Part shown: positions 43,861-48,371 of the stretch, piece after piece
Numbering within the stretch: the stretch's first letter is position 1
Layout of the letters: each line of letters begins with the position of its first letter
NCBI RefSeq assembly: GCF_016817355.1
Contig: NZ_JADOTT010000002.1
Coordinates: 1 to 56,344 of the forward strand
Direction of reading: 5' to 3'
Origin: Maricaulis parjimensis
GTDB lineage: Bacteria > Pseudomonadota > Alphaproteobacteria > Caulobacterales > Maricaulaceae
DNA length: 56,344 nucleotides
Notes under the pieces: generated by a model
Told to the model about the DNA's origin: nothing
The model's input: the letters and a program-made list of their open reading frames with translations, nothing else
The model's database searches: none
Made by a program: the position numbers and the translations under genes

Positions 43861-44166
43861 TCAGAACCCCTGGAACAGGAAGTCCATCGCGGCGGTGATC
43901 GTGTCGCGATGCTGGCGGATATTGCCGACGGGTTGGCCAAGCCACCTCAGTGGTTGGGCGCCGATCTCGCTGGTCATGAGCCAATAGGGCTGGCCTTCAA
44001 TAATCAGGGTCGGTGTCAGCCGGGGAAGGTCGGGGCCCGACGTGTTCGCCTGTGATTTGAGCGGAATGACGACCCGGCTGGACAGGTCATCGAGAAAGTC
44101 TGCCTGAACATCGACCAGCAACGGAATGGGCCAGTTGTGCACCCTGTAGAGGTCGAACCGTGCCAT
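43861..44166 (-). CDS. ccdB: CcdB family toxin
   Basis: Starting at the ATG that shares one base with the ccdA stop, the product is 101 residues. MARFDLYRV, the PLLVDVQADFLDDLSSRVVIPL block and the C-terminal MDFLFQGF match CcdB, where the last residues contact DNA gyrase. In CcdB toxins the protein poisons GyrA; activity here is inferred. The usual C-terminal Trp-Gly-Ile is replaced by Gln-Gly-Phe. Confidence 0.87.
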   Translation of the reverse strand: MARFDLYRVHNWPIPLLVDVQADFLDDLSSRVVIPLKSQANTSGPDLPRLTPTLIIEGQPYWLMTSEIGAQPLRWLGQPVGNIRQHRDTITAAMDFLFQGF

Positions 44167-44429
44167 CAGTCGTCTTTGGGAATGGCCCACCAAGGCGTTG
44201 GCAACAACATGCCCTCCCGCTCGATCCGCTCATTGTGGGCCTTGATTGCGTCGGCATTCTCTTCCAGCCAGCGGCGTTCTTTCTCGGCCTTCACTGCGGC
44301 GGCTATACCGGCTTCCGCGGCGCGTGAGGTATTCAGGCCCAAGGCCTTGGCTTCGGCCATGATGTCTTCGCGCACGGTCAGATTGGTGCGCTTGCGGCGG
44401 CTTGGTTGCGTGTAGTCCGGATCGCTCAT
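44166..44429 (-). CDS. ccdA: CcdA family antitoxin
   Basis: From ATG 44429 the protein is 87 residues: an N-terminal ribbon-helix-helix DNA-binding part (RRKRTNLTVREDIMAEAKALG) and a C-terminal flexible tail (WLEENADAIKAHNERIEREG) that should wrap the toxin, ending with the CcdA-like WWAIPKDD. Upstream in-frame starts exist but lack a good site. TGATG links it to ccdB. It is a chromosomal copy with no plasmid genes nearby. Confidence 0.87.
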   Translation of the reverse strand: MSDPDYTQPSRRKRTNLTVREDIMAEAKALGLNTSRAAEAGIAAAVKAEKERRWLEENADAIKAHNERIEREGMLLPTPWWAIPKDD

Positions 44430-44444
44430 CGCGGCCTCGCTGGA

Positions 44445-44462
44445 TGTATGTATAAGCATACA
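44445..44462 (-). promoter_or_regulatory. ccdAB operator palindrome
   Basis: Perfect arms TGTATG and CATACA are separated by TATAAG, 15 bases upstream of the ccdA start. The palindrome contains an AT-rich -10-like segment on the minus strand, so binding by the CcdA-CcdB complex could block the promoter, as in known ccd autoregulation. Confidence 0.5.
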
Positions 44463-44628
44463 CACATTGCGGCCCCCATCCAAGGTCCGGTCCGGCGCAT
44501 TCCATAAGACTCACAAGCCTGCTTGCCCTTTTCGCGCACATCCTGTATCAGCCCCGCTCCTGAGTTTATTGAGCTGCGTGCCCGGCTGTGGATCGGTGTG
44601 GCGCGGCGGATGAAAGAAAGCCGGACCG

Positions 44629-44847
44629 ATGAAAAAGGATATCCATCCCGAATACCACGTCATCACCGTGAAGATGACCGACGGGAGCGAGTTTCAGACC
44701 AAGTCGACCTGGGGCAAGGAAGGCGATGTCCTGACCCTGGATATCGACCCGACGTCTCACCCGGCCTGGACCGGCGGCAATCAGCAGTTGATGGACCGCG
44801 GTGGCCGCGTGTCCCGCTTCAAGGACAAGTTCAAAGGCTTCGTCTGA
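44629..44847 (+). CDS. rpmE: 50S ribosomal protein L31
   Basis: This 72-residue protein matches bacterial L31 ([31 protein letters not shown]). It has no cysteines, so it is the zinc-free form with no CxxC. A strong terminator follows 43 bases after the stop. Confidence 0.95.
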
Positions 44848-44890
44848 GCCTGACGCGCGACAGAGCGCGCATAAAACTTGTCATGCAAAG

Positions 44891-44919
44891 GCGCGGTACC
44901 GGAAGGTGCCGCGCTTTTT
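44891..44919 (+). terminator. rpmE intrinsic terminator
   Basis: A 10-bp stem with one G-T pair and a GGAA tetraloop is followed by five T. It ends the rpmE transcript before the AT-rich promoter region of the chemoreceptor operon. Confidence 0.88.
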
Positions 44920-45076
44920 CGTGTCCAAGCTTGCATAATTGTATCGTTGTTGCTCGATGAAACTACTATTTTACTAGCAAGTCACTGAATTATTTTAGTA
45001 ATTTGGGGGTCATTAAGGAGCTGTTTACCGCGTTTTCTTCACCGTCGGTTGAAATAAGCCACCAAGGGGAAGGGCC
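44920..45076 (+). promoter_or_regulatory. AT-rich promoter region of globin-chemoreceptor operon
   Basis: The stretch 44930-45010 is unusually AT-rich for this window, with TATTTTACTAG (44967-44977) and TTATTTTAGTAATTT. I infer a promoter here but cannot fix -35/-10 boxes. The ribosome-binding site is AAGGGGAAGGG just before ATG 45077. Confidence 0.4.
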
Positions 45077-46429
45077 ATGTCTGATCAGCTCAAGGCCGAA
45101 CGCATTTCCAATTTTGCGATCACCGCAGAGACGCGCGACAGCTTGTGCGACATGCAGGATGTCCTGCCCAGTGTTCTGGAAGGCGCACTGACAGAATTCT
45201 ACGCGACTTTGTCCCGCGCGCCGGGCGTCGCGGAGTTCTTCCGGGATGACGCCCATCGCGATCATGCCAAACAGCATCAGATCTCCCACTGGCAATCAAT
45301 CCTGTCCGGCGAGTTTGATGATTGTTATTTCGAGAATGTCCGAAGGATTGGCGAGGTCCATTGCGAGATCGGACTGGAGCCGCGCATCTATGTCGCCGGC
45401 TATGCCGGGATTGCATCCCATCTGGTCCGGGGCGCGATGAAGGCGGGCGCGCGTCGCGGGCTGTTTTCACGCGGGCAGGAGGACAAGGCGGACGCCTGGG
45501 TGGACGCCCTGATCCGGGCGGTCTTCCTGGATATGGAATTGGCGCTTTCAACCTATCTGGAAGCCGGTGAGGCCCAGGCCCGTGAAGCGCGGGTTCGCGT
45601 GGCCGATACGCTGGATGCCAATGTTTCGGCGACGCTCGACGAGCTGGCCGACACCTCCAACCGCCTGGACGAGCTGGCGGGCCGGGTCGGCGAGGCCGTC
45701 AATGCCTCGCTGGAGGATGCGGCAACCACTTCGCGCGAAGCCCAGGCTGCGTCCCAGAATGTCCAGTCTGTCGTTGTTGCGGCCGAGCAGATGCGCGGCG
45801 CGGTCGATGAAATTTCCGGTCAGGTCAACCAGACCAGCGACCGGGCCCGGGAAGCGGTGGATCAGGTTGGCTCTGCCGGCCAGGTCATGGACACGCTGAA
45901 CGGCGCTGCCCAGGAGATCGGCAATATTGTCGGTCTGATCCAGGACATCGCCGAACAGACCAATCTTCTCGCGCTCAATGCCACCATTGAAGCCGCCCGT
46001 GCCGGCGAAGCCGGTGCCGGTTTTGCCGTTGTCGCGGGAGAGGTGAAGCATCTGGCCCAGCAGACGGCGAACGCGACGGAGCGGATCAGCCAGCAGATCG
46101 GGGCCGTGCAGCAGGGTGCCTCCACGGCCGGCGATGCGATCCGCAATATCCGCCAGACCATCGACGCGGTGAATGAGGCCTCGGTCAGCATCAATGCTGC
46201 GATCGAGGAGCAGTCTTCCGCGATCCGTGAAATCGTTCGGAGCGCGAATGAAGCCGCGACGGGCAATGCGGCCGGAGCCAAGTCTTCCGCGAAACTGGAG
46301 GAAAGCGTGCGCGAATGCTCCCAGTCCTCCGACTTCGTGAAGGCGGAGGCCCAGAGCGTTCGCCAGGCCGTGACCTCCTTGCGCGAGAAAGTGCATGGCT
46401 TTCTCGAACAGACCCGGGCCGCTGGCTGA
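45077..46429 (+). CDS. Globin-coupled methyl-accepting chemotaxis protein
   Basis: This 450-residue soluble chemoreceptor has an N-terminal globin domain (about 1-165) with the proximal heme histidine at 95 in [19 protein letters not shown], the hallmark of globin-coupled sensors such as HemAT. A methyl-accepting signalling domain follows, its tip at about 285-320 ([31 protein letters not shown]). There is no membrane helix and no C-terminal CheR-binding pentapeptide. It probably reports oxygen or redox gas state to a chemotaxis kinase. Its stop shares one base with the start of the BLUF gene. Confidence 0.93.
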
Positions 46430-46890
46430 TGCTGCTGTCCCGACTGCTCTATTTCAGCCGGCGGCGCTGGCAGGGTACAGACCCGGCCGATGCCGAGCGG
46501 ATGCTGGAGAACATTCTGGAAGCGGGACGCCGCAACAATCCCCGCGACGGGCTCAGCGGTGTCCTGATCGTCGATGACGACCTTTTCGTGCAGGTCCTCG
46601 AAGGACCTCGCTCGACATTGACGCGGACTTTCTCAAGGATCCAGACGGATGCCCGGCACGAGAAAGTCGTGCTGGCCGGTCTGGTGGAAGTTGGAGACCG
46701 CCTGTTCGATGGCTGGAATGTGCATGTCCGGCGCAAGCCCGGAGAGTCGGCGCGTCCGCCCTGGTTCGCCAGTCCGGAGGTCACCACGTTCGACGCCTTT
46801 CAGGTGAGTATTGAGAGATTGTTATGCACGGAGGGCGAAACTTCGGCACTCCTCTCCCGGACTAGTAAAATAACGCTGGATTTCGCATAG
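46429..46890 (+). CDS. BLUF-domain blue-light photoreceptor
   Basis: The 153-residue protein matches BLUF (sensors of blue light using FAD) at key positions: Tyr8 in LLYFS, Asn37 in RRNNPRDGLSGVL and Gln55 in FVQVLEGP, with Trp96 in RLFDGWNV. The Met that normally follows Trp two residues later is Val98 here. The C-terminal 50 residues (after about 100) have no obvious second domain, so output is probably by protein contact. It is translated from an ATG overlapping the chemoreceptor stop (TGATG), making a light/oxygen sensor pair. Confidence 0.87.
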   Translation: MLLSRLLYFSRRRWQGTDPADAERMLENILEAGRRNNPRDGLSGVLIVDDDLFVQVLEGPRSTLTRTFSRIQTDARHEKVVLAGLVEVGDRLFDGWNVHVRRKPGESARPPWFASPEVTTFDAFQVSIERLLCTEGETSALLSRTSKITLDFA

Positions 46891-46946
46891 CCTTCCGGGC
46901 ACAAGGCAAGTGTGATAAATACACAATAAAAGTACGTGTTTGGGGC

Positions 46947-47573
46947 ATGGACTGGGCAAGAAAAATCAAGGAATTGCGCTATTTTGAGGACCTCAAACAG
47001 GATGTCCTCGCGCGGCAATTGGGCGTAAGCCAAGCCAGTGTGAGTCAATGGGAGCGCGGGGTTGCAGAGCCACCGGAGAGCGCCCAGCGCCGCCTGCTTC
47101 GCCGCTTGGCCCAGACCCCGCCCGAGCGCTTTCTGCGCGCCCTCAAACAGAGTGTCCGCTCCAGTCCCAACGTTGCTTTCCTGATGGCGCGGCGTGATGG
47201 GACTGTCCATATCGAGCTGGTCAGTGAAGGTCTGGAGGCCCGCACAGATTTCCTGCGTGCCGATGATGTCGGACGTCCCCTGCGCGGACTGTTCGGTGAA
47301 CAGGTCGATGCCCAGCTGGCGGAGCTGGAGAAGGCGGGTCTGTTTGACGGCAAGCTTGAGGGCGTCCAGGCGATGGCCATGCTGACCCGCGAAGGGCGCT
47401 CACGCCCCGTCCAGGTCAGTATGATCCCGTTCCGCATCGAGAGTGCGGACATTGATTTCGTCGTTCGCGTGGAAGTGCGCTATCCGTCCCTGACCGTTGA
47501 CAATGTGCAGCATGTCGAGCCTGAGCTCATCATGCTGCCGCACCGTCGTTCCGAGCTGGAACCGGACTTCTAG
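46947..47573 (+). CDS. XRE-type regulator with possible PAS-like sensory domain
   Basis: The 208-residue product begins with an XRE helix-turn-helix (KIKELRYFEDLKQDVLARQL, GVSQASVSQWERG; about 1-55). The rest (about 75-190) alternates beta-like and helical segments (FLMARRDGTVHIELVSEGLE, GRPLRGLFGEQV, VSMIPFRIESADIDFVVRVEV), resembling a PAS fold, though I do not recognise a named family. It begins 56 bp after the BLUF gene, in the same orientation, and may be the transcriptional output of that unit. It ends 4 bases into the convergent rcdA gene. Confidence 0.8.
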   Translation: MDWARKIKELRYFEDLKQDVLARQLGVSQASVSQWERGVAEPPESAQRRLLRRLAQTPPERFLRALKQSVRSSPNVAFLMARRDGTVHIELVSEGLEARTDFLRADDVGRPLRGLFGEQVDAQLAELEKAGLFDGKLEGVQAMAMLTREGRSRPVQVSMIPFRIESADIDFVVRVEVRYPSLTVDNVQHVEPELIMLPHRRSELEPDF

Positions 47574-48097
47574 CGGTCGCCGAAAGCGCCGCGCAGCATG
47601 GCCATCTGATCCGCAACGGGATTGCTGTCGGCTTCGACCAGACCATCAATGTAGAGATTGTCGTCGATCCGCTTCAGCCGCTCATAGAGACGACGTGACC
47701 GGGTCACCAGATCCATCAGCGTGCGCGGTGCGTCTTCGCCTTCCGGCCAGAGACCATCGGTCGGTTTGTCGGTGCTGAGACGGTATTTGCCGTCCGTGGC
47801 ATCCTCGGCACTCATTTCACCTTCGGAGACCGCGCGCTGGGCGAGCAGCCAGGAGGCGGCCTGCATCAGGCGTGTGGTGAGCTTCATGCTCTCGGTGGCG
47901 TAGGACAGGGCGCCGGCGCGGTCGAGCGATTTGGAATCGTCGCGGCCCGGCCCATCCAGATAGGCGGCTGTCTCCTCGACCAGATCCATGCCTTCCCGGA
48001 AGAGTTTCTGGAACATCTCCGAATTGGCAAAATCCTGGGCTCGGGCGGCAGGTGCGCCCCCGGCGGGGAAGAGGGTCGGCGTCGTATCAGTCATCAC
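47570..48097 (-). CDS. rcdA: RcdA-like protein (DUF1465), ClpXP adaptor
   Basis: The 175-residue helical protein has NSEMFQKLFREGMDLVEE, AAYLDGPGRDDSK and TRLMQAASWLLAQRAV, the conserved DUF1465 blocks. In Caulobacter the family member RcdA is an adaptor that helps deliver CtrA to the ClpXP protease at the cell pole during the G1-to-S change. The same role here is by homology. Acidic/disordered C-terminal residues fit a protein-contact tail. Confidence 0.88.
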   Translation of the reverse strand: MMTDTTPTLFPAGGAPAARAQDFANSEMFQKLFREGMDLVEETAAYLDGPGRDDSKSLDRAGALSYATESMKLTTRLMQAASWLLAQRAVSEGEMSAEDATDGKYRLSTDKPTDGLWPEGEDAPRTLMDLVTRSRRLYERLKRIDDNLYIDGLVEADSNPVADQMAMLRGAFGDR

Positions 48098-48173
48098 GCG
48101 TCCGTTTATCGGTCGATCTCAGGGTTCGAACGAATCAAAGCAATCCGCGGGCCAGCTTCCCAAAAGAGTTTGA

Positions 48174-48371
48174 TCAAAACTTAAACACGGCGTCGGCAGC
48201 GGACCGTCCGGCCTGTTTTTTCTCAGTCATCGCGTCGATGCGCAGGATTTCCTCCTGCAGGAGGCGTTTGCGTTCCGCCAGATCCTCCAGAGAAAGCTCC
48301 GAGAGGTCTTCGCCCGGTGTGATCGTGTGCTTGGCCTTGGCACCGGCGGCGCTATCTTCATCATGAAACAT
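48174..48371 (-). CDS. DUF1192 family small protein
   Basis: The 65-residue product matches the short DUF1192 family of alphaproteobacteria: PGEDLSELSLEDLAERKRLLQEEILRIDA followed by a Lys-rich segment. A single amphipathic helix or coiled coil is expected. The function is unknown. It lies 76 bp upstream of rcdA on the same strand and may share its transcript. Confidence 0.82.
   Translation of the reverse strand: MFHDEDSAAGAKAKHTITPGEDLSELSLEDLAERKRLLQEEILRIDAMTEKKQAGRSAADAVFKF

Follow-up and report, generated by a model that had tools for sequence, protein, structure and literature searches.

PpsR, the DNA-binding repressor of Rhodobacter sphaeroides, carries PAS domains. In the AppA-PpsR system a BLUF domain and a haem sensor feed this repressor, which joins light and oxygen signals (as described in PMC4844311). 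AppA however carries its BLUF and haem (SCHIC) domains on one polypeptide and the targets of the system are photosynthesis genes. In the unit described here the haem part is encoded by a separate protoglobin chemoreceptor gene and the regulator is of the XRE type. A second comparison is PixD-PixE of Synechocystis, where a short BLUF protein is described as steering motility via contact with a partner (PMC5899715, PMC5812497), but there the partner is of the PATAN-CheY type and is neither a globin receptor nor an XRE regulator, and PixD has the signalling Met93. The best solved-structure match of the BLUF profile used here is Slr1694/PixD.

Globin-coupled chemoreceptors of the HemAT type resemble the receptor of the present unit in having a Protoglobin domain together with an MCP signalling domain. 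We know of no HemAT gene that is coupled to a BLUF gene. In Spongiibacter sp. CSC3.9 a BLUF gene is located immediately upstream of blue-light-responsive chemotaxis and stator genes; the main text of that report does not contain the words "globin" or "operon", and no XRE gene is noted in its passages on this BLUF gene (PMC8805636). E. coli YcgF is described as a BLUF protein that acts via a partner, as a direct anti-repressor, and in the PapB-PapA system of Rhodopseudomonas the BLUF protein PapB is described as acting on an EAL protein (PMC8846402), but the partners of both are different and neither system has a globin receptor.

Searches of the open literature for BLUF with globin or chemoreceptor yielded no title or abstract opening that describes the unit (most subscription papers lie outside the scope of these searches), which gives weak support to the original prediction that this arrangement may be undescribed. 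The unit is conserved and is apparently an undescribed sensory module.

Gene unit in Maricaulis parjimensis

The unit is found in a 56,344-nt stretch of the M. parjimensis genome, termed the window. The genome itself is designated G000, and other G codes refer to compared genomes. Positions 45077-46429 (+ strand) encode a globin-coupled chemoreceptor (GCS) of 450 aa, positions 46429-46890 (+) a BLUF protein of 153 aa, and positions 46947-47573 (+) an XRE-type regulator of 208 aa. The GCS stop codon TGA (46427-46429) and the BLUF ATG (46429-46431) have one base in common (TGATG), and the XRE ATG at 46947 is 56 bases past the BLUF stop. The convergent neighbor, rcdA (47570-48097, - strand), encodes a protease adaptor (NF051867, above cut-off); it is outside the unit and its open reading frame overlaps that of XRE by 4 bases. 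An antitoxin gene, ccdA (PF07362, E = 5.6e-20), adjoins a CcdB-like open reading frame (named by eye) elsewhere in the window, at positions 43861-44483 (-).

The GCS amino acid sequence matches Protoglobin (PF11563) at residues 8-165 (E = 4e-32) and MCPsignal (PF00015) at residues 250-416 (E = 4.3e-32), both above cut-off. The BLUF protein matches PF04940 with 79.1 bits (E = 2.7e-22; cut-off 25) and displays no second domain above the Pfam cut-off. The XRE sequence has an HTH at positions 5-61, with matches to HTH_31 (34.5 bits, E = 2.5e-8; cut-off 27) and HTH_3 (28.1 bits; cut-off 23); both matches are also found in 28 of 28 XRE relatives at E = 0.01, a set from which two XRE sequences, the second one of G299 and that of G011:C30, were left out. 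The predicted identities of the three genes, the one-base overlap and the 56-base spacing are thus confirmed. The C-terminal part of XRE gives a weak signal (PAS_9, E = 0.0043, below cut-off), which is a hint of a PAS-like domain. Among the 28 relatives PAS_9 matches are present in two and a PAS match (1.8e-5) in one, and a comparison of the XRE profile with solved structures gave no PAS match.

The globin part of GCS matches the HemAT structure 1or4 (E = 2e-6). His95 and Tyr42, positioned by alignment, are presumably the proximal His and the distal Tyr; both residues, as well as the canonical chemoreceptor tip, are kept in 14/14 intact module GCS sequences. No hydrophobic stretch is visible and GCS is predicted to be soluble. 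The window BLUF has Tyr8, Asn37 and Gln55, i.e. the Tyr, Asn and Gln of the flavin hydrogen-bond network, and also Trp96. Thus all the residues named in the original prediction (His95, Tyr8, Asn37 and Gln55), and the receptor tip, are present in the window copies. Position 98, which was not part of that prediction, is Val in place of the usual Met.

Values of dN/dS for GCS, BLUF and XRE against the two closest relatives are 0.08-0.14, which are rough values as dS is at least 1. For BLUF they are 0.10 and 0.08 (also rough, dS being ~1.7; for the pair G000-G005 the ratio could not be computed), and values this low indicate that BLUF is not in decay among these close relatives.

The same genome carries another BLUF-like gene, which is divergent (L105:6058-6462, on G000:C6), with a PF04940 match of E = 9e-8 and 30% identity. 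Four XRE-type paralogues, of which three are arranged in tandem, are clustered at ~168.6-172.6 kb of G000:C10 (L098:5625-9624).

Recurrence of the unit in the family

A search with the BLUF protein gave matches that include Maricaulis alexandrii LZ-16-1 and Maricaulis MAG IN27. GCS is directly ahead of BLUF in 6 of 19 Maricaulis genomes (G000, G001, G003, G005, G006 and G014) and the pair is absent from the other 13. BLUF adjoins XRE in six (G000, G001, G003, G006, G008 and G014). G005 differs in having an XRE-type gene upstream of GCS. XRE-type genes are common in the genus, with 1 to 8 matches per genome.

In four of the 19 genomes the unit is located between rpmE and rcdA (in G006 it is split over two contigs). 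The rpmE-rcdA gap contains other cargo in G004, G009, G010 and G015, and is short in the remaining 11 genomes. The presence of other cargo in other species shows this gap to be a variable insertion site. The cargo includes a different chemoreceptor in G009 and G010 (L121:6046-7593 and L122:3122-5380); at L127 the gap is occupied by an amylase-like gene and at L117 by a restriction-like one (these two named by eye). A second site is beside a LON-domain gene. Here G008 has BLUF-XRE, G013 one XRE gene and G014 two; the XRE of G009 is degenerate, and G011 has a GCS of the module type. G012 has an XRE among the same upstream neighbors, on a contig without LON. No module gene was seen at the LON-domain site of 12 other Maricaulis genomes (in G006 the site is truncated by the end of the contig), and LON was without a match in G018. 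The contents of the two sites indicate that the genes, as related parts, have been acquired, lost and relocated. Maricaulis genomes also have XRE by itself, GCS by itself, or BLUF with XRE but without GCS; thus the three genes are not strictly interdependent.

A profile made from seven Maricaulis BLUF sequences was searched against 137 family genomes. Outside Maricaulis, XRE and/or GCS adjoin BLUF at 12 of the 14 best-scoring places, the exceptions being G407 and G210:C30. Intact GCS-BLUF pairs are present in eight family genomes beyond Maricaulis (G057, G094, G210, G052, G144, G264, G279 and G220), and most family genomes are without the pair. An XRE-type gene is beside all 14 pairs (six in Maricaulis and eight in the rest of the family). 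Six of the eight non-Maricaulis pairs have the order XRE-GCS-BLUF; in G279 and G220 XRE is downstream and convergent. G177 has retained a GCS remnant of 67 aa, flanked by XRE and BLUF. Altogether 22 module-type BLUFs were found: 14 with an intact GCS adjoining, one with the GCS remnant (G177), 21 with an XRE-type gene and one with neither (G134:C25). Six, including that of G008, keep XRE only. At the GCS-BLUF junction the spacing is -1 nt in four of 13 measured pairs and +9 to +26 nt in the other nine; G006, where GCS is split over two contigs, was left out of this count, and its GCS end is seen beside BLUF.

A search of 398 genomes of the order yielded 21 places with at least 144 bits and a next best score of 118, a gap that is partly circular in that 19 of the 21 top places had gone into the profile. 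XRE is nearby at 20 of these places, an intact GCS at 13 and a GCS remnant at one. The unit was not found at the best-scoring loci outside the family in 398 order and 385 class genomes; the loci comprise 20 from the order (~6-9 kb each) and 29 from the class (no longer than 3.4 kb; two of these belong to the same order). Together with 20 lower-scoring loci of the family these make up 69 control BLUF loci, and a GCS or XRE match is present at none of them. In the sampled genomes the putative sensory module is specific to one bacterial family. The original prediction called for a check on neighbor conservation in relatives, and the unit does recur there, at different sites.

A different pair, a chemoreceptor without a globin domain directly ahead of a BLUF with the usual Met, is found at L190:2584-4984 (G371) and L259:3370-4956 (G264); L259 is the one control locus with a globin-less chemoreceptor.

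In a BLUF tree ten control sequences separate from the module side with support of 88/92, which is below the star level of the tool; G407 and G210:C30, which have Met and are without module neighbors, are on the module side with long branches. In a GCS tree, from which the G177 remnant was left out, the module GCS sequences cluster with weak support and other GCS sequences fall among them.

In five genomes outside Maricaulis the unit adjoins cydB (cytochrome bd oxidase), with matches above cut-off, and in G177 a truncated CydD-like fragment, with a match below cut-off, is beside it. Six neighbors, picked by eye, were covered by this test. These neighbors place the unit in an oxygen-related context in part of the family.

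The TAGTAAAATA element and regulation

A dyad-like element, CTACTATTTTACTAG, is located ~100 bases before the GCS start at positions 44963-44977, with TAGTAAAATA on the - strand at 44967-44976. A second copy with one mismatch, TACTAAAATA, is at 44991-45000 (-). Both copies are conserved in G001 and G006, and the dyad-like element has diverged in G003. A further TAGTAAAATA is in the BLUF 3′ end, ahead of XRE, at 46863-46872 (+). When up to one mismatch is allowed, the window has three TAGTAAAATA sites (two before GCS and one in the BLUF 3′ end) vs. 0.05 expected; the loose dyad CTACTATTTTACTAG by itself is not significant. The pattern CTAGTAAAATAAC, with up to two mismatches, has three matches in the M. 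parjimensis genome, two of them at the unit, and the reversed pattern has 22. Since the CTAGTAAAATAAC pattern came from this locus, it is the conservation that provides independent evidence for the element.

The third genomic match, at G000:C10:247639 (L144:7640), has two mismatches and a different spacing and is ~75 bases before a small gene for a Flp-like pilin (named by eye). It is probably a chance match; it is also a lead that XRE might act on Tad-type pili.

The sequence GTAAAATA is present before 7 of 13 Maricaulis XRE genes (G000, G001, G003, G006, G008, G012 and one of those in G014), altered before one and absent before five; the seven aligned XRE-upstream sequences were chosen for carrying the element. 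In other genera, where the regions before 17 XRE genes were compared, nothing but a shorter TAAAATA was detected, in two cases. GTAAAATA is located beyond the BLUF stop in G003 and G008, and G012 has GTAAAATA but no BLUF gene; it is thus a DNA element and not a coding sequence.

A promoter-like site (TCGGCA-17-TAAAAT) is at 46843-46871, and the TAAAAT of the TAGTAAAATA element forms its second hexamer. The element could act as an operator, as a -10 region or in both ways. It is quite conceivable that TAGTAAAATA is no XRE operator but simply a conserved -10 region, or the target of some other regulator: the TAAAAT is part of the sole promoter-like site of region 44800-48200, where 0.4 are expected by chance. 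Against this, the same element is present before GCS in the opposite direction, as a 15-base dyad, and two of just three matches in the genome are at the unit. The presence of TAGTAAAATA before both GCS and XRE suggests local regulation and a separate XRE promoter. The original prediction of one translated pair thus fits GCS and BLUF, while the conserved element ahead of XRE indicates that this gene probably has its own start too.

BLUF residues and proposed function

The signalling Met of the W-x-M motif is on strand beta 5 and corresponds to Met93 of PixD and Met106 of AppA. It is absent in all 22 module-type BLUFs, where 18 have Val and one each has Ala, Thr, Leu and Ile. Among 77 distinct other BLUFs, Met is found in 75 and Leu in two (sets of 41/43 and 40/40, with six genes common to both). 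Met is therefore typical of the BLUF family but not decisive for membership, in view of the two others with Leu. Of the flavin network residues, Tyr8 is kept in 19 of the 22 and replaced by Phe in G003, G005 and G008; G215 and G234 have lost Asn37, and G234 also Gln55. With a BLUF set that lacks the signalling Met, and in some members also the Tyr, Asn or Gln, the joint control by oxygen and blue light that had been predicted is not supported as formulated.

PixD M93A and Y8F are described as behaving as if locked in the signalling state, and M93A as retaining the red shift (PMC5899715). Loss of Met106 in AppA is described as disrupting signalling while the red shift remains (PMC4630285). From these data the window BLUF is predicted to be still capable of photochemistry, with an output route that is either different from those studied or missing. 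To judge from its residues, it is possibly not a conventional light sensor.

The interpretation proposed, with a probability of about 0.5, is a three-gene sensory module in which a variant BLUF acts by contact on XRE and, if present, on GCS, and in which XRE controls the module via TAGTAAAATA. GCS would be a soluble, haem-binding globin chemoreceptor of the aerotaxis type, and BLUF would be made from the same message by translational coupling. XRE would probably control the module through TAGTAAAATA ahead of the receptor gene and ahead of its own gene. The likeliest partner of BLUF would be XRE, its most persistent neighbor, since BLUF stays with XRE in six genomes without GCS and in G177 with its GCS remnant. 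GCS would be the second likeliest, because of the tight GCS-BLUF junction, and BLUF may act on it by contact wherever the receptor is present. Oxygen, via haem, and the state of a putative BLUF-bound FAD, set by light or redox, could in this way influence both taxis and the module's own expression.

Co-expression without contact is a rather improbable alternative. The genes would then move and be expressed as a group since oxygen and blue light are relevant in one and the same setting, with GCS alone performing aerotaxis, BLUF having another target and XRE being only a local regulator. The occurrence of every gene type without the others, and the probable separate XRE promoter, are in line with this; the distance of no more than 26 nt between GCS and BLUF in 13/13 measured pairs, and the retention of XRE by BLUF in the six genomes without an adjoining GCS, are not.

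It is unlikely that BLUF has ceased to be a light switch and now serves as a flavin or redox sensor, or as a fixed partner of XRE and/or GCS. Such a role would agree with the signalling Met being found in 0/22, with the Tyr8, Asn37 and Gln55 losses listed above and with the seemingly locked PixD M93A and Y8F. Tyr8 is however kept in most of the set, the window copy also has Asn37, Gln55 and Trp96, and the red shift of PixD M93A (PMC5899715) implies that photochemistry may persist and the signal may take another route. A chance neighborhood at the variable rpmE-rcdA insertion site, to which the other cargo in G004, G009, G010 and G015 could point, is refuted almost completely, because the same genes recur together at different sites (G005, G008, G014 and other genera) and no control locus (0/69) gave a match to GCS or XRE.

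Within the three-gene module, a tentative and rather doubtful suggestion is that this BLUF lineage gave up Met-dependent light output and became a flavoprotein (light or redox) dedicated to partnership with XRE and a haem chemoreceptor. It would form a split, AppA-PpsR-like integrator of oxygen and flavin signals for taxis, naturally locked in those species that have Phe in place of the key Tyr.

If the proposed module is correct, it would be a naturally occurring case of tight genetic linkage between a chemoreceptor that senses oxygen via haem and a BLUF sensor with flavin. It would also represent a natural experiment on the disputed role of the BLUF methionine, in that a whole conserved BLUF set works without Met. 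The module makes it testable whether BLUF proteins may serve as redox or constitutive partners and not as light switches.
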